From: Pyramidobacter sp.
GTDB taxonomy: Bacteria > Synergistota > Synergistia > Synergistales > Dethiosulfovibrionaceae
NCBI GenBank assembly: GCA_017940445.1
Contig: JAGAYQ010000338.1
Span: 1 to 10,663, forward strand
Length of the DNA stretch: 10,663 nucleotides
Direction: 5' to 3'
Of the stretch, positions 1 to 10,663 are shown one piece after another. Positions within the stretch are counted from its first letter, which is position 1. Each line of letters begins with the position of its first letter. The translations under genes and the position numbers were made by a program. The notes under the pieces are model-generated. The model was not told the origin of the DNA. It ran no database searches and saw only the letters and a list, made by a program, of their open reading frames with translations.

Positions 1-961
1 GACGCTCGTCGACGCAGTGCTGCCAGCTGACGGGCATGGACTTGGCCACGATCTCGGCCGTGGGGATGGCGTCGAACGGCGCCTGGGGCGCGTCCTTGCG
101 CACGGAGTGCATCCACGCCTTGACGATGTGCTTCTGACCTTCGGGCGAAAGGAACCAGTCGGTCAGCTCCTCGCAGATCTTCGCGTTGCCGTGGGCGCTC
201 CACTCGTCCTTGACGGTCATGATCGGCGAGGGCACGCAGATCGTGCCGTCGTCGGGATAGATCACGGTGATGGCGCTGCCCTCTTCCTCGCGCTTTTTCA
301 GAACGGACTCTTCAAGGATCATGATCACCTTGCACTCGCCCGTCTCCAGCTTGGTGAGGGCGACAGAGCCGCTCTCGACCATGACGCGGTTGGCAGCCAG
401 CTTGTCGTAATACTCATATCCGTACTTGTCCTTCAGCGCCGAGATCGTGTCGAGCGCCGTTCCCGAGGTGAGCGGGTTGGACATGGAGATGAGGCCGGCC
501 AGGCTCGCATCGTAGGCAAAATCCTTGAACGTGTGCGGCACTTCTTCGGCCTTGTATTTTTCGGGGTTGTAGGCGAGGATCATATTGGAGACGCGCACGG
601 GGTACCAGTAGCCTTCGGGATCGTATTCAAAGGCTATGTTCGCGCTCTCCTTCGAGACGTAGGGATGGAGCAGGCCTGCCGCCTTCAGCTCAAGCGCGTA
701 GGAAGGATCGGCCACCATCAGCATGTCGCAGCCCAGCTTTTTCGATTCGCGCTCGGCGGCGATCTTCGACTGGAGCGTGCCCGTGCCGCCGTAGAAGAAC
801 TCGATATCGTACTGCGGGAATTTTTCCTGGAGCACTCCCGTCATCGCTTCGATGATGTCTTCATACATCGAAGTGTAGATCGTCACCTGGGGCTTGTCAG
901 CCGCCAGCGCCGCACACGAAAGAGAAAGAACTGTCACCAGAACCGCCGCAATTTTTTTCAT
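1..961 (-). CDS. ABC transporter substrate-binding protein, AfuA/FbpA (iron) type, partial at the C-terminus
   Basis: I translated the minus strand from the ATG at 961; the frame stays open for 320 codons and leaves the window, so probably only a short C-terminal tail is missing. Residues 1-20 form a signal peptide (MKKIAAV..., then CAALA before ADKP) with no convincing lipobox. The mature part has the look of the COG1840 group of extracellular solute-binding proteins: TIYTSMYEDI at 28-37, GGTGTLQSKIAAE at 58-70, a YWYPVR segment near 118-123 and WFLSPEGQKHIV at 269-280. Such proteins bind ferric iron or small anionic ligands outside the membrane and deliver them to an ABC permease. A strong AGGAGG at 973-978, 11 bases upstream, supports the start. 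Permease and ATPase genes would be expected beyond the left edge. Family is fairly sure; the ligand (Fe3+, phosphonate or other) is not. Confidence 0.85.
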   Translation of the reverse strand, partial: MKKIAAVLVTVLSLSCAALAADKPQVTIYTSMYEDIIEAMTGVLQEKFPQYDIEFFYGGTGTLQSKIAAERESKKLGCDMLMVADPSYALELKAAGLLHPYVSKESANIAFEYDPEGYWYPVRVSNMILAYNPEKYKAEEVPHTFKDFAYDASLAGLISMSNPLTSGTALDTISALKDKYGYEYYDKLAANRVMVESGSVALTKLETGECKVIMILEESVLKKREEEGSAITVIYPDDGTICVPSPIMTVKDEWSAHGNAKICEELTDWFLSPEGQKHIVKAWMHSVRKDAPQAPFDAIPTAEIVAKSMPVSWQHCVDER

Positions 962-990
962 CGCAGAAATTGCCTCCTGACATGAAAGTT

Positions 991-1575: not shown

Positions 1576-2670
1576 ATGAAAATAAAGCTAAAAACCGTCC
1601 TGGCCGTGTGTGCGGCCATCGTCCTCGCCGTCCCCGCTGCTGCAAAGCCGCGCGTCGTGACGACGCTGTTTCCTATTTATGACTGGACCCGGAATATCAT
1701 CGGCGAGCGGAAGGACGCCGTCGAACTGCTGCCGCCGCTCAACACCGGCGTCGACCTGCACAGCTATCAGCCCAGCGTCGACGACATCCTGCGCATCTCC
1801 ACGAGCGACCTGTTCATCTACACCGGCGGGCTGTCGGACGCCTGGGCGGAGCGCGTCCTGCGCGATGCCGTGAACAAAAAACTCGCCGCCGTCAGCCTGA
1901 TCAAAGCCCTCGGCGAGCGCGCCCGTGAGGAGGAGACCGTCGAAGGCATGGAAGCAGGACATCATCACCACGGCCATGATGAGCACGAGAAAGATCATGA
2001 CCGCCACGAGCATGAAAAAGATCATGACCATCACGAGCACGAAAAAGATCACGGACATCACGAGCACGAAAATGACCACGGCCATCACGAGCACGAGAAA
2101 GATCATGACCATCATGAGCACGACGAAGGTCCCGAGTACGACGAGCACGTCTGGCTCTCGCTCGTCAACGCGCGTCTGCTCTGCGGCCGCATCGCCCAGG
2201 CGCTGAGCGAAGTCGATCCGCAGGGAGCCGACGCCTATCGCGCCAACGCCGCCGCCTACAGCGCCAAGCTCGACGCGCTCGACGCCAAATACCGCGCGGG
2301 CGTTGCCAGCGCGAAGCACACGACGCTGCTATTCGCCGACCGCTTCCCGTTCCGCTACCTCGTCGACGACTACGGGCTGAGCTACTTTGCCGCCTTCCAG
2401 GGCTGCTCCGCCGAATCGGAAGCCAGCTTCAAGACCATCCTTTTCCTGGCAGACAAGCTCGACGCTCTGGGACTGCCCTGCGTGCTCACCATCGAAGGCT
2501 CGTCAAAAAAGATCGCCGAGACGGTCGTGCGCACCGCCAAGCGCGGCCCCGTCCCTATCCTCACGCTCGATTCGATGCAGTCGGTACGGGCTGACGGTAT
2601 CGCCAGCGCCCCCGATTACCTGACCGTGATGGAGCGCAACCTGGCGATCCTCCAGGAGGCGCTGAAATGA
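1576..2670 (+). CDS. znuA: ZnuA-like zinc/metal ABC transporter substrate-binding protein with His-rich loop
   Basis: 364 residues, starting after GGAGGT at 1561-1566. Residues 1-23 are a signal peptide (ends PAAAK). The rest matches the cluster A-I metal-binding proteins: VVTTLFPIYDWTRNI at 27-41, a ligand region with His62 (DLHSYQPS), and DEHVWLS with His191, the second ligand. Residues 128-182 are a loop with about 25 histidines among Asp, Glu and Lys, typical in kind of ZnuA and AdcA proteins and thought to collect or sense zinc. The usual third ligand His (HDAFGY) is replaced by ADRFPFRYL at 254-262. Asp332 (LTLDS) may be the last ligand. I recall the DRFPFRYLVDDYGL and GCSAE motifs from a clostridial-type subfamily. 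It should bind zinc outside the membrane. The downstream gene overlaps it by 4 bases (ATGA). No permease or ATPase gene is adjacent. Confidence 0.9.
   Translation: MKIKLKTVLAVCAAIVLAVPAAAKPRVVTTLFPIYDWTRNIIGERKDAVELLPPLNTGVDLHSYQPSVDDILRISTSDLFIYTGGLSDAWAERVLRDAVNKKLAAVSLIKALGERAREEETVEGMEAGHHHHGHDEHEKDHDRHEHEKDHDHHEHEKDHGHHEHENDHGHHEHEKDHDHHEHDEGPEYDEHVWLSLVNARLLCGRIAQALSEVDPQGADAYRANAAAYSAKLDALDAKYRAGVASAKHTTLLFADRFPFRYLVDDYGLSYFAAFQGCSAESEASFKTILFLADKLDALGLPCVLTIEGSSKKIAETVVRTAKRGPVPILTLDSMQSVRADGIASAPDYLTVMERNLAILQEALK
1981..2124 (+). repeat. Five 27-bp tandem repeats encoding the His-rich loop
   Basis: Five imperfect 27-base units run from 1981 to 2115 and a sixth begins at 2116 (GAGCACGAC). 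Each encodes a nine-residue unit of the form EHEKDHDHH (residues 136-180), with variants such as EHEKDHDRH and EHENDHGHH. The unit length is a multiple of three, so gain or loss of copies keeps the frame. Silent changes between units show the array is not freshly expanded. Confidence 0.92.
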
Positions 2671-3167: not shown

Positions 3168-3899
3168 ATGACCACCACCGCCGAAATCGCCCGGACGGAT
3201 CCCGACTTCGCCCGGATCGAAGCGCGCTTTGCCGCCGAAGTGCGTGCTCACGGCAGCATGGACGACCGCGAACGCGCCCTCTGCGTCCTCTCTGCTCTGA
3301 TCGCCCTCGGCGAAACGGACGAATTCGCTTTGCAGTTGGACGAAGCCCTGAACGGCGCTCTTTCACCCGTTGAGGCGCGAGAGCTCGTCTATCAGTCGGC
3401 TGCTTATCTGGGCTTTGCGCGCGCCCGCGTCTTTCTCGCCGCCGCGAACGGCGTCTTCGCCGCACGCGGCATCTCCCTGCCCCGGGAGCAGGAAGCCCCG
3501 GACGCTGCAGACCGGCTTGAAGCCGGCGCGCGCGTGCAGGCCGCGCTGTTCGGCGAAGAGACCGCCGATTTCTGGCAGTACGGCCCGGAAGAGACGCGCC
3601 ACCTCGGCAGAATGATGGTCGAAAACTGCTTCGGCGACTTCTATTCGCGCGGCATCCTCAGCCTGAAAGACCGCGAACTGGCCGCCTTCTGCACCCTTGC
3701 CGCTCTCGGCGGCGGCGCTCAGCTCAAAGTCCGCGTCGTCGCCGGCTATGCCGCCGGAAACGACCGCGCCGCGCTGATCTCCGCGCTCACGCAGCTTGTG
3801 CCCTTCATCGGCTGGACACGCGTTTTGAACGCCCTCGCCATCCTCACCGAGACCGACAAAGAGCTGAACGACGACGGCTACGACGAAGATACGTTTTAG
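3168..3899 (+). CDS. Carboxymuconolactone decarboxylase (CMD) family protein, two-domain
   Basis: 243 residues, with AAGGAG at 3153-3158 nine bases before the ATG. Two CMD (AhpD-like) helical domains are visible: about 30-105 (MDDRERALCVLSALIALGETDEF, then LSPVEARELVYQSAAYLGFARA) and about 145-228 (RMMVENCFGDFYSRGILSLKDRELAAFCTLAALGG, then GNDRAALISALTQLVPFIGWTRVLNALA). The domain spacing resembles the 240-260-residue cytoplasmic proteins in this family, which are often next to redox or aromatic genes. Cys39, Cys154 and Cys175 are present, but there is no AhpD-type CXXC, so classical peroxidase activity is not supported. No signal peptide. The acidic tail (NDDGYDEDTF) is beyond the fold. It stands alone, with its own promoter and the terminator at 3973 after it. 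The exact reaction is unknown; family assignment is firm. Confidence 0.88.
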   Translation: MTTTAEIARTDPDFARIEARFAAEVRAHGSMDDRERALCVLSALIALGETDEFALQLDEALNGALSPVEARELVYQSAAYLGFARARVFLAAANGVFAARGISLPREQEAPDAADRLEAGARVQAALFGEETADFWQYGPEETRHLGRMMVENCFGDFYSRGILSLKDRELAAFCTLAALGGGAQLKVRVVAGYAAGNDRAALISALTQLVPFIGWTRVLNALAILTETDKELNDDGYDEDTF

Positions 3900-3972: not shown

Positions 3973-4013
3973 AAAACGGCATCCAGGACTACAACATCCT
4001 GCAATGCCGTTTT
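3973..4013. terminator. Bidirectional intrinsic terminator between converging genes
   Basis: AAAACGGCAT at 3973-3982 pairs with ATGCCGTTTT at 4004-4013, and CAGGA at 3984-3988 pairs with TCCTG at 3997-4001 inside it. The minus strand has a run of eight T after the stem and the plus strand has TTTTGTTTG. It ends both the CMD-family gene (stop at 3899) and the minus-strand operon (stop at 4040). Confidence 0.88.
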
Positions 4014-4039: not shown

Positions 4040-5005
4040 TCAGACTCGTATGTACTTCTTGATGCCGATATAATCCTTGTCCATAATGCCGACTTCGCCG
4101 ATATAAACACTGCCCTTGTGATCCACAGCAATGCTGTGTCCGCAATGGTATTTATGGTCGGGGTGGGCCCCGAAGTCATTTTCAAAGCGGGCCAAAAGCT
4201 TGCCCTCCGGCGTGAGGATGCTCAGGCGTGACGGTGCTGCATCGAATACGTCACAGCGCTTGCATTCGCACAGATACAACAGACCATCGTCACCCTTGCG
4301 AAGAGATGAAGGACGGATCAGCCCCGTCCACTCGTCGATAAACGTGCCGTCCAGGTCAAAACGCTGGATACGGTTGTTCTCACGATCGCATACGTGGATG
4401 ACTCCTTCCTCGCTGATATAAATACCATGCGGCAGGAAAAACTGGCCCGGCTTGATTCCGGGTTCGCCCCAGCTGCAAATATATTCCCCGGACGCAGAAT
4501 AACGATGGACCTTGGCATTGCCATACCCGTCTGTGATGTAGAAATCTCCGTTTGGAGCCTCGGCGATTGCTGTACAGCCGCAGAAAGGTCCTGCTGCCTG
4601 ACGGATTGTCCTGTAGTCAGGGTACCCAGCTATCCAGTCTACGTCTGTGCCCGAGTGCTGCTTAGGCGTTCCGAGAGTTTGCAGAATATTACCGTTCATA
4701 TCCATCTTATAAACTGCCGACCAGTAATCATCGACACACCAAAAAGCGCCCTTGCTGTCAAAAAGCATGCCGTGTGCACGGCCAATCTGACTTGCATTGC
4801 CAATCGTACGGATGAAGTTTCCATTTTCTCCGGCAACAATGATTGGTATATCACTGCGCGTGAAAAGATACACTTGATTATCATTATCAACCGCGATTTC
4901 CGACACTTTGGAGAGTCTAAAGCCACCAGTTACGACAGGCGCTAATTCTTTTCCCCAGTTTTCATCGTACTGGAAGCAAAAATCGCCGCTTTTAAACTGA
5001 TCCAT
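4040..5005 (-). CDS. Six-bladed NHL beta-propeller protein, peptidyl-alpha-hydroxyglycine alpha-amidating lyase (PAL)-like
   Basis: 321 residues from the ATG at 5005. An in-frame TTG at 5014 touches the GAGAGG ribosome site, which stands 9 bases before 5005, so 5005 is preferred. No signal peptide, so cytoplasmic. NHL-type blades are plain, for example ITDGYGNAKVHRY at 157-169 and LPHGIYISEEGVIHVCDRENNRIQRF at 191-216. Comparison from memory with the rat lyase domain gives matches for the zinc histidines (His78 in RAHGM, His193 in LPHGI, His290 in CGHSI), Tyr161 in DGYGN, Arg208 in DREN and Arg50 in FTRSD. That domain splits alpha-hydroxyglycine compounds to an amide and glyoxylate. Last gene of the operon, 26 bases after the aldolase. 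A lactonase-like or other hydrolytic role is the alternative. It looks lower in G+C than the plus-strand genes. Confidence 0.78.
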   Translation of the reverse strand: MDQFKSGDFCFQYDENWGKELAPVVTGGFRLSKVSEIAVDNDNQVYLFTRSDIPIIVAGENGNFIRTIGNASQIGRAHGMLFDSKGAFWCVDDYWSAVYKMDMNGNILQTLGTPKQHSGTDVDWIAGYPDYRTIRQAAGPFCGCTAIAEAPNGDFYITDGYGNAKVHRYSASGEYICSWGEPGIKPGQFFLPHGIYISEEGVIHVCDRENNRIQRFDLDGTFIDEWTGLIRPSSLRKGDDGLLYLCECKRCDVFDAAPSRLSILTPEGKLLARFENDFGAHPDHKYHCGHSIAVDHKGSVYIGEVGIMDKDYIGIKKYIRV

Positions 5006-5031: not shown

Positions 5032-5793
5032 TTATCTCAGATCCTGATATTTCTTTACGAAATCCTTGAAAGCATTTAGCAGAAGTATCTCATCAGGCCC
5101 GACGCTGAAGAACTTTGCCCCCATTGCCATTTTGGATTTCACAAACTCCGGTGAAGCGGCAAGCATCAGAGGAATTTTACCGTGCTGCAGAGCTTTCTTA
5201 ATAAGAAGATCCTCCATAGCAAGAACTTCAGGGTCAGTCAGCTGTCCTGGTTTTCCCATCGACTGAGAGATGTCCCCCTTCCCCGAAGAGACCATATCGA
5301 CCCCCGGAAGAGAAATAATCTGGTCAAGATGAGGAATCGCCTTTTTGTCTTCAATCTGGATATTCAGCGTCACAATATCGTTAGCAATTTGGGCATACTC
5401 CTGGAACGTTGAGCATCCTGCCAGACGAACAAACCGGCCGATCGGGAACTGCCCGCGCTTTCCGAGCGGATACATCTTTGTCGCAGCGACAGCTTCCCTT
5501 GCTCTTTCAACCGTATCAACATCAGGAACAACAATCCCTGTCACGCCCTGATCGATCAGTTTTGTGATGTCTTCGATATTGGAAACCCTGACCTGACAAG
5601 GCATATCCAGCAGTGTAGCCGTTCTGACCAGCTCTTTGAGCTCTTTATAATCGAAGAGAATATGTTCATAATCGACGCGAATGAAGTCAAATCCCGCCAG
5701 TTTTGCCATTTCTACAACAGCAGGATCGGAGAAGTTCATATACAGCCCCAGAACCGGACCTTCCTTTTTAGCAAGCTCCTTAAAAGTTTTCAT
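5032..5793 (-). CDS. HpcH/HpaI (class II, metal-dependent) aldolase family protein
   Basis: 253 residues, the usual length for HpaI-type aldolases. AGGAGG at 5801-5806 precedes the ATG. The TIM-barrel motifs are in order: DYEH at 41-44 with the His that acts in acid-base catalysis, QVRV with Arg69 for the oxo-acid carboxylate, GIVVPDVDTVERAREAV at 86-102, MYPLGKRG at 107-114, QIED with metal ligand Glu148, and SSGKGDISQSMG with metal ligand Asp174. Family members reversibly split 4-hydroxy-2-oxo acids into pyruvate (or a similar oxo-acid) and an aldehyde in the cytoplasm. Here the family loop IGPNDLS is SSGKGDIS, and GKRGQFP replaces the common GxRG-plus-Gly pattern, so the substrate is not a standard one. 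It lies between a carboxylate carrier and the PAL-like gene in one operon. Fold and broad chemistry are firm; the substrate is unknown. Confidence 0.85.
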   Translation of the reverse strand: MKTFKELAKKEGPVLGLYMNFSDPAVVEMAKLAGFDFIRVDYEHILFDYKELKELVRTATLLDMPCQVRVSNIEDITKLIDQGVTGIVVPDVDTVERAREAVAATKMYPLGKRGQFPIGRFVRLAGCSTFQEYAQIANDIVTLNIQIEDKKAIPHLDQIISLPGVDMVSSGKGDISQSMGKPGQLTDPEVLAMEDLLIKKALQHGKIPLMLAASPEFVKSKMAMGAKFFSVGPDEILLLNAFKDFVKKYQDLR

Positions 5794-5897: not shown

Positions 5898-7205
5898 CTA
5901 CTTTTTGAAGACAAACAGCAGTACGACTGGCACGAGGAAAATCGCCGCACCAATTCCGATTGCCTGCCACAGATTACCGGCCAAAAGCATCATCGGCCAA
6001 ATTCCGATAAGCAGCGAGAACGGCGCGTATACTGCTGTCGCCACACCGTCTGCGGCACCAACATCGCACTTCGAATCCGGATCGATTGTCCGCACGAGCG
6101 CAAGACCATTTGCCGCAACACCTGTACCACGGCCGAACAGCATGACCATGTTCTCAAACCATTCTTTATCAAAGAACTTGCGGCAGAGGAAATAAAGGAG
6201 GAGCAATGTCGCTCCGATTACGACCACGCAATAGATCATCAGAGGCACGAAATAGGTCTGGAGCAGGCTTAGCTTTATCGTCGCGATCGCCGTCAAGATG
6301 ATCATCTCAAGGACACAGCCGTTAATCGAGCTAATCGTCTTGACATCAATGAACTTTTCCAGCTTCAGCATGCGCAGAACTGTCCAGAGAATTGCCGCGC
6401 CCAGAGAACCCCACAGCATGGAAGGCACGTTCTTAAGAACAGGGAAAATCGGGCGGAGGTTATTGCGAAGCAGTCCCTGGCCGATCCACAGAGCAAAAAG
6501 CAGAGACGCAAAATTCAGGGCAAGCGCGTTGATTCCGTTGCCGCTCACCGTCGTCATGCCAATAGGCTTCTTCTCGTCGGCAGGAAGCGTTCCGTGATAG
6601 AACCATGAAGGCTGCTTCTGCGGTTCCTGCACATAGGTCGCCCAGCCGCGGCGAACGCCGAAGTTGACAACTGTCATGCCGACAACCATCGCAGCGATAA
6701 CTCCCACAGTCGAGAGAAGCATTCCGATATCAAGATTGCCCTCAATTCCTAATCCCTTGAAAACGTTGCCAACGGTGCCGGCTGCGCCATGACCGCCATA
6801 GAAGCTGTAAACGCCCATCAGTCCCCAGCCCTGAGGCATGCCGGGCCACAGTTTGGTCAGGAAATCTCCCATGTATATGCCAAGCGCAGCCTGCATCCCG
6901 AGGAAGGCAAAGTAAATCAGCGTATACGTACGGAACTGTCTGATCCTGGCTGCATTGATCGTCACGCCGAAAAGAAGCGCCGTCATGACAAGATCAATAA
7001 GCGTCCCCGAAAACGAAGAGAACGATTTAGGAAGCTCAACAATTCCGAGCACTTGCGGACCGCATACTAAAGCGATCACTCCGCCAATCACGCTCGCAGG
7101 CAGAAAGAGTTTTTGCAAGGGCGGAAGGAATTCGCGCACAACGAAACCAACCAATAGGAAAATGGCAAAAATCATCAGATCAAATTGGAACGAAGCAAGT
7201 GTCAT
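5898..7205 (-). CDS. ESS (GltS-like) sodium:carboxylate symporter
   Basis: 435 residues, almost entirely membrane segments, with about ten to twelve helices. AAGGAGGA at 7216-7223 precedes the ATG. The two signature re-entrant regions of the glutamate:sodium symporter family are present in altered form: YGGHGAAGTVG at 136-146 (compare GGHGTA in GltS) and GRGTGVAANGLALVRTIDPDS at 358-378. The middle loop (about 186-215) is polar, separating two halves as in GltS. Family members bring in glutamate or related carboxylates with Na+. The altered motifs make glutamate itself doubtful. It is flanked by a kinase pair and an aldolase in the same operon, so the likely cargo is the operon's substrate or an intermediate. 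It is a second, unrelated carrier beside TctAB. Confidence 0.82.
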   Translation of the reverse strand: MTLASFQFDLMIFAIFLLVGFVVREFLPPLQKLFLPASVIGGVIALVCGPQVLGIVELPKSFSSFSGTLIDLVMTALLFGVTINAARIRQFRTYTLIYFAFLGMQAALGIYMGDFLTKLWPGMPQGWGLMGVYSFYGGHGAAGTVGNVFKGLGIEGNLDIGMLLSTVGVIAAMVVGMTVVNFGVRRGWATYVQEPQKQPSWFYHGTLPADEKKPIGMTTVSGNGINALALNFASLLFALWIGQGLLRNNLRPIFPVLKNVPSMLWGSLGAAILWTVLRMLKLEKFIDVKTISSINGCVLEMIILTAIATIKLSLLQTYFVPLMIYCVVVIGATLLLLYFLCRKFFDKEWFENMVMLFGRGTGVAANGLALVRTIDPDSKCDVGAADGVATAVYAPFSLLIGIWPMMLLAGNLWQAIGIGAAIFLVPVVLLFVFKK

Positions 7206-7281: not shown

Positions 7282-7899
7282 TTACTCGCACGATTCGGCT
7301 ATCGTCTCAAACACGAGCTTGACGACAACGGAACCACCGTCGAAATGGCCGAGGCTTTTTTCTCCGTAATACGCAGCGCGGCCGTGCGCAGCAACCATCT
7401 GCTTTGTCGCTTCAGAACCGGCACGGGCAGCTTCGGCGGCAGCTTTGAAACCTTCCTCCGCCGTCGCTCCGGCATGAGCTTTCAGCGCTTCACAGGCCGG
7501 CAGATAAGCGTCGATCATCGTTTTCTCACCGGTTTTTGTCCCCGTGCGCTGGACGATTTTGTCGAGGCTCTTACCAAAGGCATCGGCCAGGTCGTCAAAA
7601 GTCGCTTCGGCCTTTCCTTTCAGCGCTGAGGCCAGTCCCATCATCCCCAAGCTGATGATCGTTCCCAGAGACGACGGGGCGGCGCCGTTGAACGCCTTTG
7701 ATCCTGCGAGCAGAAGTTTGCCCAGATCCTGTTCCTGTGACTGCGAGAACGCCTGATCAACCGCCTCAAAGCCATGCACCATGGACACGCCCAAGTCGCC
7801 GTCGCCGAGGGCCTGATCGAGCTCCGTCAGATAATCTTTGTTGGCAGCGATCTTCTCCGAAATTTTATGCCAGACCGTTTTGAGCTTTTGGGAATCCAT
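7282..7899 (-). CDS. DhaL-like (DAK2) ATP-binding kinase subunit
   Basis: 205 residues, the length of free-standing DhaL. A start at 7899 is supported by AGAGG about 8 bases upstream and a 12-base gap after the DhaK-like gene. The Mg-nucleotide aspartates are present: Asp28, Asp33 and Asp35 in LDQALGDGDLG. The other motifs are TGTKTGEKTMIDAYLPA (119-135) and GRAAYYGEKSLGHFDGGS (173-190). Two consensus positions differ: GDxDHG is GDGDLG, and the phosphate loop usually written GGASGPLYG is NGAAPSSLG (71-79). It should supply the nucleotide-binding part of a two-subunit kinase with the DhaK-like protein. No phosphotransferase DhaM is in the window and none is fused, so whether the phosphate comes from ATP or from a DhaM elsewhere is open. 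Confidence 0.9.
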   Translation of the reverse strand: MDSQKLKTVWHKISEKIAANKDYLTELDQALGDGDLGVSMVHGFEAVDQAFSQSQEQDLGKLLLAGSKAFNGAAPSSLGTIISLGMMGLASALKGKAEATFDDLADAFGKSLDKIVQRTGTKTGEKTMIDAYLPACEALKAHAGATAEEGFKAAAEAARAGSEATKQMVAAHGRAAYYGEKSLGHFDGGSVVVKLVFETIAESCE

Positions 7900-7911: not shown

Positions 7912-8919
7912 TTACTTGTTCAGATTCGTGTAGAAGGGCGTCGCTGCGGGGGCACTCAGGTATTTGTGCATCTGCTCGTCAAGCTTGAACACTGTCACTG
8001 AAAGTCCGGCCATTTCCATCGACGTTGCAAATTCACCAACATGAGGCATATAAATGCTGACGCCTTTTTCCTCGAGGATCGCGGCGACTTTTCTGTAAAC
8101 AATGAAGAGCTCTTCAAGCGGGGTCGCGCCAAGTCCGTTGACCATCACCGACACTTCGTCGCCCTTTGCCAGCGGCATGTCGTCACAGATGCGAGACATC
8201 AGGGCTTCCGCAACTTCGTCGGCTGTCATCATCTTGCGCACTTCAATGCCGGGCTCGCCGTGGATCCCCATGCCGACTTCGATCTCATCATCGTTGATAT
8301 GGAACGAGGGTTTGCCGACCTCGGGCAGGATGCAGGGCGAAACGGCAACGCCCATGCTTCTGATGTTCGCAAGAGCCTTTTCTGCAACAGCGGCAACTTC
8401 GTCAAGCGATTTCATCTCATCAGCAGCCGCGCCGGCAACTTTGAAAGCATAGACCATGCCGGCCACGCCGCGGCGCTTTTCAGCCGTCTCCTTCGGACTC
8501 GAGGCCACGTCGTCCGCCACGAGCACGATACGCGTCTTCACGTCGTCAAACTCGACCGTATCGCAGGCCATCTCAAAGTTCATCTTGTCTCCGCCGTAGT
8601 TGCCGAACAGGCACAGAACGCCGCTGCCGCTGTCGCAGGCTTTGATCATGTCGGCCATATTCTGGGCCGAAGGTGACGCGAAAACGTTGCCCGCGACGCA
8701 GCCGTCGAGCATTCCCTTGCCGACATAGCCGAGGAATACGGGAAGGTGGCCGCTACCGCCGGCCGTAACGATGCCGACCTTGCCCTTGGGGGCAGGAGGA
8801 TTGCGAAGGATGATCCGCTTGTTGCCGTCAAGGCAGGTCAGCTGGTTTTTATAAGCGGAAAGAAGTCCTTCCAGCATTTCATCGACAAAGTTTTCAGGCT
8901 TATTGATGATCTTTTTCAT
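7912..8919 (-). CDS. DhaK-like (DAK1) substrate-binding kinase subunit, atypical pocket
   Basis: 335 residues from the ATG at 8919 (MKKIINKPENFVDEM, the normal DhaK start). An in-frame ATG at 8937 overlaps the AAGGAG at 8929-8934 and is rejected. DAK1 fold motifs are clear: AGGSGHLPVFLGYVGKGMLDG (53-73), SPSAQN, NYGGDKMNFEMA (107-118), and GMGIHGEPGIE (217-227). His58, Asp111 and His220 match the residues that hold the substrate in E. coli DhaK, with His220 being the one that forms the covalent hemiaminal bond to the ketone. But the usual GSGHEPAH is GSGHLPVF and NYTGDVMNF is NYGGDKMNF, both next to the active site. It therefore should bind a short ketone or aldehyde covalently, perhaps not dihydroxyacetone. 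Other members of the family act on erythrulose and related ketoses. Confidence 0.9.
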   Translation of the reverse strand: MKKIINKPENFVDEMLEGLLSAYKNQLTCLDGNKRIILRNPPAPKGKVGIVTAGGSGHLPVFLGYVGKGMLDGCVAGNVFASPSAQNMADMIKACDSGSGVLCLFGNYGGDKMNFEMACDTVEFDDVKTRIVLVADDVASSPKETAEKRRGVAGMVYAFKVAGAAADEMKSLDEVAAVAEKALANIRSMGVAVSPCILPEVGKPSFHINDDEIEVGMGIHGEPGIEVRKMMTADEVAEALMSRICDDMPLAKGDEVSVMVNGLGATPLEELFIVYRKVAAILEEKGVSIYMPHVGEFATSMEMAGLSVTVFKLDEQMHKYLSAPAATPFYTNLNK

Positions 8920-8956
8920 GAAAAACAGCTCCTTCATAGAAATAGTTTTTAGTCCT

Positions 8957-10438
8957 TCAGCGGCGTGCTCTGAGGTAATGAATCAGCTTGCCGCACGGTT
9001 CCCACATCACGACCAGAACGATCAGAGTGACCAGCACGGCGCAGATCGGGTCAAACAGGAAGATCCTGAAATCGCCGCCAGATTTCAGCAGTCCGACGCG
9101 CAGATTGTTTTCCACCATTGGGCCGAGGATCAGCCCCAGGATCAAAGGCGCCTGCGGGATCGAAAGCCGGCGCATCATATAGCCTACACCGGCCATGAAG
9201 AGCATGACGAAAATATCAAAAAAGCTCCTGCGGATCGCGTACGAGCCTGTCAGAGCGAAAATGCCGACAAGGACGAACACGATCTTCGGCGGCATCTTCA
9301 AAATCTGCAGGAACGCCTTGATGCCGATGATCCCCGCAGGGATCAGGATCAGCTGAGACAGAAACGCAATGCTGAAAACGCCGCGGATCATCTGGCTCGA
9401 TTCGGTAAAGATACGCGGACCGGGCGTAATGCCGAACACCAGCATCGCGCCAAGGACAACAGCCGTGATCGAGTCGCCGGGGATGCCGAAGACCAGCGCC
9501 GGAATCCACGCGCCGCAGATCGCGGCGTTGTTGGCACTCGTTGGCGCGACCACGCCTTCCTCCGCGCCGTGTCCGAATTTCTCCGGCTCCTTGGAGGTCT
9601 TTTTCGCCGTCCCGTACGTGACCCAGGCAGCGATGTCCGCACCTGCTCCCGGCAGCGCCCCGATAAACGCGCCAATTAACGCCGAACGCAGGACCAAGAG
9701 CTTAAGACGCCAAATAATCCCGAACGTCGTCGAGAGAGGCGGCATCGGCGCCGTGTCAAAAACAGACACTGACTGAAGGTTTTGTGGCTGCGAAACCTTG
9801 TTGATGACCTCCGACATACCCAGAAGACCGATGATGACCGGCGTAAGCACGATGCCGTCGGCCAAGTTCAGACTGCCGAACGTGAAACGGTAATATCCCG
9901 TGCTCAGGTCCATGCCGACCGTCGAGAGCAACAGCCCCAGACACAACGAGATCGCGCCTTTGATCGGGCTGCTTTGACTGAGGAAGATGCTCATAATCAG
10001 GCCGAAAATGCTGAGCCAGAAGTACTGGAAGTGGGTAAATTTCAGCGCAAACGTCGCCAGATACGGTGCTATAAAGATCAGGCAAAGGACGCCGATCACC
10101 CCGCCCAGTGACGAGCAGAACAGATCGAGCGCCAGCGCCAGGCCGCTCTTTCCCTGCTGCGCCATTTCATAGCCATCGAGGACCGCCGCGGCTGACGCGC
10201 CCGTTCCTGGGACACGAAGATACGTCGCTGGAATATCACCGGAAAAGATCGCCGTACAGCTCACACCTATGACCATCGCCAGTCCGGCAACAGGCGGCAT
10301 GGAGTAGGCAACGGGGATCAGCAGCGAAACGGCGATCGTTGCCGAAAGACCGGGCGTCGCTCCGACGACCAGCCCAAACAGAAGCGACAGGAACCACGGG
10401 ATCAGAATGGAAAGTTGCAGAAGCACTGTTAGGTCCAT
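8957..10438 (-). CDS. tctA: Tripartite tricarboxylate transporter (TTT) large permease, TctA family
   Basis: 493 residues with about twelve membrane helices, the usual TctA length. GGAGGT stands 6 bases before the ATG at 10438. Family motifs are seen in both halves: FGLVVGATPGLSAT at 21-34, RVPGTGASAAAVLDGYEMAQQG at 75-96, LPGAGADIAAWVTYG at 262-276, KFGHGAEEGVVAPTSANNAA at 287-306 and WIPALVFGIPGDSITAVVLGAM at 311-332. It moves organic acids across the membrane by ion gradient, together with the small TctB subunit and an extracellular TctC binding protein. TctC is not in the window and is expected to the right. In the second-half motif the common APEAANNA reads APTSANNA. It lies one base after tctB and 37 bases before the DhaK-like gene, in one operon. 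Confidence 0.93.
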   Translation of the reverse strand: MDLTVLLQLSILIPWFLSLLFGLVVGATPGLSATIAVSLLIPVAYSMPPVAGLAMVIGVSCTAIFSGDIPATYLRVPGTGASAAAVLDGYEMAQQGKSGLALALDLFCSSLGGVIGVLCLIFIAPYLATFALKFTHFQYFWLSIFGLIMSIFLSQSSPIKGAISLCLGLLLSTVGMDLSTGYYRFTFGSLNLADGIVLTPVIIGLLGMSEVINKVSQPQNLQSVSVFDTAPMPPLSTTFGIIWRLKLLVLRSALIGAFIGALPGAGADIAAWVTYGTAKKTSKEPEKFGHGAEEGVVAPTSANNAAICGAWIPALVFGIPGDSITAVVLGAMLVFGITPGPRIFTESSQMIRGVFSIAFLSQLILIPAGIIGIKAFLQILKMPPKIVFVLVGIFALTGSYAIRRSFFDIFVMLFMAGVGYMMRRLSIPQAPLILGLILGPMVENNLRVGLLKSGGDFRIFLFDPICAVLVTLIVLVVMWEPCGKLIHYLRARR

Positions 10439-10439
10439 A

Positions 10440-10663
10440 TCAGTACCTCCAGTTTAGGTATTTCGACGAAAGCTCGCCAGCCGGCAGCGAGACTCTAAAT
10501 GCGAAGTTGAAGAGAAGCAGGACAATGACGACAGCAATCACCGCAGTGAATAAAGCTGTCAGGGGTTTGACATGCAGCCTGAGCATCAGCAGGAAGGCAA
10601 AAAGAAATGTAGAGATCGCGTAGCCAAAGTACGTCAGCATCGGCACGTACAGAAGAATCATCC
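10440..10663 (-). CDS. tctB: TTT small permease, TctB family, partial (C-terminal half)
   Basis: Seventy-odd residues ending at the stop codon at 10440, with the reading frame open to the right edge. The sequence ILLYVPMLTYFGYAISTFLF, then a short basic break (RLHVK), then LTALFTAVIAVVIVLLLFNFAF and VSLPAGELS has the shape of the last two helices of TctB and its ending motif LPxG. TctB is normally about 150 residues, so the front half lies outside; the Met near the edge (10661) is probably internal. Stop and the tctA start are separated by one base (TGATATG), a typical coupled pair. Confidence 0.8.
   Translation of the reverse strand, partial: MILLYVPMLTYFGYAISTFLFAFLLMLRLHVKPLTALFTAVIAVVIVLLLFNFAFRVSLPAGELSSKYLNWRY

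Follow-up and report, generated by a model that had tools for sequence, protein, structure and literature searches.

A PAL-like propeller protein of Pyramidobacter as a candidate lyase releasing a 2-oxo acid within a nutrient-uptake operon

In a stretch of 10,663 nucleotides from Pyramidobacter sp. (assembly GCA_017940445.1, contig JAGAYQ010000338.1; hereafter the window), we analyzed a minus-strand gene (4040..5005) encoding a six-bladed NHL propeller protein of 321 amino acids that resembles alpha-amidating lyase (PAL) in alignment, structural model and profile comparison. We propose, by analogy with PAL, that this PAL-like protein is a zinc lyase that would convert a hydroxyglycine-like acid to glyoxylate or another 2-oxo acid for use by an aldolase, a reading to which we assign a probability of roughly 55%. 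Since the full active site is kept, the gene lies within a nutrient-uptake cluster and an aldolase gene is adjacent, PAL chemistry is here probably used to degrade a small carboxylic acid. The fold and the site were computed, and the metal, the chemistry and the substrate we infer; release of glyoxylate itself would follow from the likeness to PAL.

The gene is an open frame starting with ATG and read from 5005 to 4040, with three stops on the plus strand of the same segment. Its product shared 28% identity over 269 residues with rat PAL, and profile–profile comparison of the two gave a probability of 99.9% over 266 columns. In all three MAFFT modes, run with a rat sequence that matched 3fvz_A at 100% identity across 323 residues, Arg50 (codon 4858-4856), His78 (4774-4772), Tyr161 (4525-4523), His193 (4429-4427), Arg208 (4384-4382) and His290 (4138-4136, all on the minus strand) were paired with Arg533, His585, Tyr654, His690, Arg706 and His786, respectively, which we take to be catalytic residues of rat PAL. 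An earlier note on this DNA had pointed to these six residues, with the histidines 115 and 97 positions apart, and had given spacings of about 105 and 96 for the rat enzyme; the alignment agreed on both counts. According to the literature, PAL is a six-bladed enzyme with a single zinc that releases glyoxylate (PMC6529398), and an active-site Arg, numbered 703 in another paper (PMC10303134) and not necessarily the same as rat Arg706, takes part in substrate binding.

All six residues were invariant in 120 of 120 family rows, query included, these being the best 120 of 491 homologues at E <= 1e-20, and again in 102 of 102 rows of an alignment of the PAL-like protein with proteins derived from individual loci, a few genes being present twice. 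For Tyr161 and Arg208 the latter count is partly selected, because retrieval of the 80 loci relied on patterns that included DGYGN and DR[EQ]N; Arg50 and the three histidines are unaffected. Invariance in both sets argues for more than chance conservation of the site. The NHL propellers Thin and TRIM71 lack the alternating histidine set, Thin having one such His (PHYIAVS) and TRIM71 none.

The AlphaFold2 model of the protein, with a pLDDT of 90.8, was a six-bladed propeller for which Foldseek returned rat PAL as first PDB match, with virginiamycin B lyase (Vgb) among the further matches. In this model His78, His193 and His290 each lay in the first strand of its blade (blades 2, 4 and 6, respectively), the blades being our own assignment from the strands of the model. 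As the three predicted positions are alike on alternate blades, one shared metal site is possible, and together with the rat PAL match this gave, in part, the kind of structural support that had been sought for the earlier proposal. The protein is probably cytoplasmic: no signal-like N-terminus was seen, with a top 13-residue mean hydropathy of 0.67 in a crude scan that exceeded 1.8 in just one of the 120 family rows. PAL has disulphides, and three of the four cysteines of rat PAL were not kept in the alignment, which fits such a location.

The gene closes an operon running in one direction on the minus strand, in the order TctB-TctA-DhaK-DhaL-GltS-HpcH/HpaI aldolase-PAL-like, followed by a terminator. 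The aldolase gene (5032..5793), 26 bp upstream of the PAL-like gene, encodes a 2-oxo acid aldolase of the HpcH/HpaI family with 253 amino acids (Pfam PF03328, 1.4e-17; YfaU, 2vws, 3.7e-31). Further upstream, likewise on the minus strand, are genes for a GltS-type sodium/glutamate symporter family protein (5898..7205, 435 aa; PF03616, 3.4e-13), a DhaL-like (Dak2) subunit (7282..7899, 205 aa; PF02734, 1.1e-39), a DhaK-like (Dak1) subunit (7912..8919, 335 aa; PF02733, 5.1e-122), for which a longer frame begins at 8937, yet most homologues listed have 335 amino acids, and TctA, the large membrane subunit of a tripartite tricarboxylate transporter (8957..10438; PF01970, 2.5e-133). The contig breaks off within a probable TctB gene, of which the 3' part is present (10440..10661; PF07331, 2.3e-6, 28.3 bits, below the cut-off of 29.1). 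Folding revealed a hairpin with a T run at 3973..4013 on the minus strand, a probable intrinsic terminator ending the operon; the 82-nt region had a folding energy of -26.5 kcal/mol (z -3.47), with 0 of 200 shuffles as low, and was missed by a simple scan that limited loops to 3-8. The earlier note's view that a cytoplasmic protein encoded in a catabolic operon keeps a PAL-like active site is supported, the location being probable and the operon looking catabolic; its interpretation as a whole is partly supported.

Extrapolating from PAL, His78, His193 and His290 would hold one Zn2+, while Arg50 and Arg208 would hold the carboxylate of the substrate and orient Tyr161, which may act as the base that helps to remove the proton from the alpha-hydroxyl. 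The bond from the hydroxylated alpha carbon to N (or O) would then be cleaved, giving glyoxylate, or a substituted 2-oxo acid, along with an amide, amine or alcohol. Judging from the gene context, the substrate is probably a polar multi-carboxylate imported via Tct and/or the GltS carrier, and the freed 2-oxo acid would pass to the adjacent aldolase of HpaI type; in sister cassettes a D-2-hydroxyacid dehydrogenase would take it up instead. These two enzyme families are natural partners of such a lyase, as members of both work on 2-oxo acids. A triose-like product may be phosphorylated by DhaKL.

Similar gene sets were found elsewhere. In the Pyramidobacter assembly an HpaI query found two HpaI genes, and two PAL-like genes were found as well, each adjoining an HpaI gene; the second set, on contig C41, also contained TctB-TctA-TctC. 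Contig C379 of the same assembly encodes a D-2-hydroxyacid dehydrogenase that shares 86% identity with its counterpart in a sister genome, and at the edge of the contig a segment matches the N-terminal 30 residues of the PAL-like protein from that sister. Dehydrogenase, PAL-like, HpaI and TctB genes were grouped in a genome of the same genus; a Lachnospiraceae metagenome bin (RUG10682) had the order TctC-TctB-TctA-metallohydrolase-dehydrogenase-HpaI-PAL-like with a divergent LysR gene; and Chelativorans multitrophicus had TctC-dehydrogenase-HpaI-PAL-like and then a second PAL-like gene past a sulfopyruvate decarboxylase-like gene pair that scored under NCBIfam cut-offs. PAL-like and HpaI genes were adjacent also on a Chloroflexi contig, and in Bradyrhizobium an RraA-like aldolase gene precedes the PAL-like gene, with a TctC gene nearby. 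Nine genomes contributed ten distinct loci with a dehydrogenase gene no more than 3 kb away (L003, L004, L006, L014, L027, L055, L064, L125, L132 and L156), counted over 159 loci, some of them duplicates and 15 of them concerning other genes.

In a tree of 49 hand-chosen rows, the protein fell in a separate clade of 19 rows (support 99/99), and the HpaI adjacency of six rows called for three changes, of which starred branches force two; rat PAL sat on a very long branch, making its position unsafe. The blade-5 loop of the clade (residues 248-260) is short and reads like CKRCDVFDAAPSR, with Arg or His at position 250 and Ser or Thr at position 259 in 19/19 rows each, and with a mean pLDDT of 65 for block 251-260. 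Four proteins that were not in the tree and were counted outside the clade (P0018, P0021, P0023 and P0024) have a similar loop. The basic residues in the loop of the clade hint at an anionic substrate.

Several findings weigh against the proposed function or against the tie to its neighbours. With regards to the protein itself, NHL domains without this site reach equal scores by fold only, the position of rat PAL Met784, a residue that we do not regard as defining, is taken by Cys288 (Ala in 100 of 120 family rows and 81 of 102 locus-alignment rows), and a Mesorhizobium relative has Asp in place of Arg208. The window contains no dehydrogenase gene, and its HpaI is just 26-33% identical to the HpaI of other cassettes. 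HpaI was adjacent in no more than three of the 80 further loci (L004, L055 and L072), many of which had short flanks; a Chloroflexi genome (G188) with five PAL-like and six HpaI genes had none adjacent; and in Chelativorans HpaI adjoins only one of the two PAL-like copies. In the C41 and G002 sets the HpaI and PAL-like genes are on opposite strands and therefore belong to separate transcripts. Occurrence was also patchy, with copies at strict cut-offs, the central genome being included in each case, in 2/185 genomes of the phylum, 2/391 of the class of the Lachnospiraceae bin (G185) and 2/247 of the Chelativorans family (G186), which suggests accessory genes; the corresponding figures were 1/274 for the class of G190 and 15/245 for the class of G188.

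Blind enrichment among neighbours was likewise modest, with HpaI and 2-hydroxyacid dehydrogenase each accounting for 4 and TctC for 5 of 125 near genes; one of the four HpaI genes came from the Pyramidobacter genome itself and one was added by hand. Among 90 far genes TctC occurred twice, once from the L004 cassette itself, and HpaI and 2-hydroxyacid dehydrogenase were not among the 25 of 88 listed for the far set. These counts are rough, as the greedy caller of open reading frames picked antisense frames too and missed the HpaI of L003. From 142 nearest neighbours, 133 were left after removal of those cut by contig ends, and 125 after nine were dropped (for length or antisense frame) and one, the L072 HpaI, was entered manually; L001 and seven of eight Poribacteria loci with shared neighbours were omitted. 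The far genes were reduced from 92 to 90, still including two Tct cassette genes of L004 and the second PAL-like gene of Chelativorans.

Part of this evidence would suit an enzyme that uses the PAL scaffold and a metal for another chemistry, such as a hydratase, an isomerase or one opening a hemiketal or lactone, and that acts on a 2-oxo or 2-hydroxy acid and feeds the aldolase. The recurrent neighbours indicate general 2-oxo/2-hydroxy acid metabolism rather than glyoxylate, the blade-5 loop is unlike that of rat PAL and varies within the family, and Met784 is not kept; against that, all six of the PAL catalytic residues are, and we consider such an enzyme rather unlikely. A lactonase of the SMP-30/gluconolactonase or Drp35 type would be in line with the propeller fold, common to Drp35 and the lactonase RPA3624, and with an adjacent aldolase of sugar-acid type. 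SMP-30 lactonases have a calcium site made up of Glu, Asn and Asp. The three invariant histidines on alternate blades, as well as a Pfam SGL score of 19.1 bits, under the cut-off of 26.3, make a lactonase an improbable choice.

Ureidoglycolate (N-carbamoyl-hydroxyglycine) is chemically a substrate of PAL type, and the earlier note had named ureidoglycolate-type compounds as candidates. A ureidoglycolate lyase of purine breakdown is nonetheless disfavoured and now seems highly unlikely: the operon holds no purine gene, and no allantoinase match above cut-off was found in the assembly (~84% complete), the best scoring 215 bits against a cut-off of 357.85 and having a stop in frame; as a control, the same search matched in 14 of 14 genomes, above the cut-off in two. 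The least probable alternative, an NHL protein without enzyme activity that serves as a binding scaffold for protein or nucleic acid, would have to accommodate six invariant residues at PAL catalytic positions as well as a catabolic context.

Compared with known systems, rat PAL (PDB 3fvz, 3fw0) is alike in its six-bladed propeller and in the alignment of three His, a Tyr and two Arg. It differs in the blade-5 region, and for the PAL-like protein no peptide substrate is apparent; according to PMC6529398, it also differs in being a secreted animal domain partnered with PHM. A PHM-type partner (PF03712) had no match in the ~84% complete Pyramidobacter assembly, with the control silent too (0 of 14 genomes), which gives no support to the earlier note's statement that a partner hydroxylase is absent. 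Virginiamycin B lyase is a propeller lyase as well, but the Pfam Vgb_lyase score was 19.1 bits against a cut-off of 50, and the protein likewise scored below the cut-off of the SMP-30/gluconolactonase family profile. The resemblance to PAL is not new to databases, since NCBI places homologues in a PAL family, in name only. No tested function for this bacterial family was found in the open-access literature, nor, among the matches listed there (titles and starts of abstracts, so that absence from print is not implied), any bacterial PAL-like enzyme beside HpaI or Tct; the tie of the PAL-like gene to HpaI, dehydrogenase and Tct genes likewise did not appear among those matches.

A large bacterial family bears the name of an animal enzyme for peptide processing, and with the full site kept and defined partners (HpaI, the Tct importer and the D-2-hydroxyacid dehydrogenase of sister sets) its substrate becomes a testable question. 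If glyoxylate is indeed made in catabolism, this would bear on the origin of peptide amidation and add an uncharacterised degradation step. More tentatively, it is possible that PAL-type propellers are widespread bacterial lyases splitting imported hydroxyglycine-like or hemiketal acids, with the 2-oxo acid passed to an aldolase or 2-hydroxyacid dehydrogenase, and that peptide amidation in animals is a late reuse.

Some further neighbours of PAL-like genes were recorded. In Chelativorans multitrophicus (L055, 3420-12295) the two PAL-like genes flank the sulfopyruvate/phosphonopyruvate-decarboxylase-like pair together with an aldehyde dehydrogenase gene, and genes for a DUF1932 dehydrogenase and PrpF come next. 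On a Sulfitobacter pontiacus plasmid (L157, 5715-7771) an amidase gene overlaps a PAL-like gene with the six residues kept, after a TRAP transporter; an amidase acting after an amide-making lyase would make sense. On a Sinorhizobium fredii plasmid (L159, 4610-7918) genes for a Rieske protein and for a VanB-type reductase lie upstream of the PAL-like gene; these may form an oxygenase able to supply a hydroxylated substrate. The Mesorhizobium gene with Asp at the Arg208 position (L156, 6995-7906) adjoins a cluster for ectoine breakdown. In three Chloroflexi loci with shared neighbours (L063, L069 and L070) the PAL-like gene probably lies between chlorite-dismutase-like and 2-phosphosulfolactate-phosphatase-like genes, with three members of each among the neighbours, matched to these loci by hand.

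Beyond the operon, the window holds part of a gene for a solute-binding protein (2-967, minus strand) with weak similarity to binding proteins for 2-aminoethylphosphonate (84 bits against a cut-off of 393), and a gene for a two-repeat protein of the carboxymuconolactone decarboxylase (CMD) family (3168-3899, plus strand) that faces the operon end. A gene for a ZnuA-type zinc-binding protein (1576-2670, plus strand) contains a tandem repeat rich in His, Glu and Asp (27-bp unit, array 1969-2149); that part of a zinc importer is encoded near a putative zinc enzyme is probably a coincidence.
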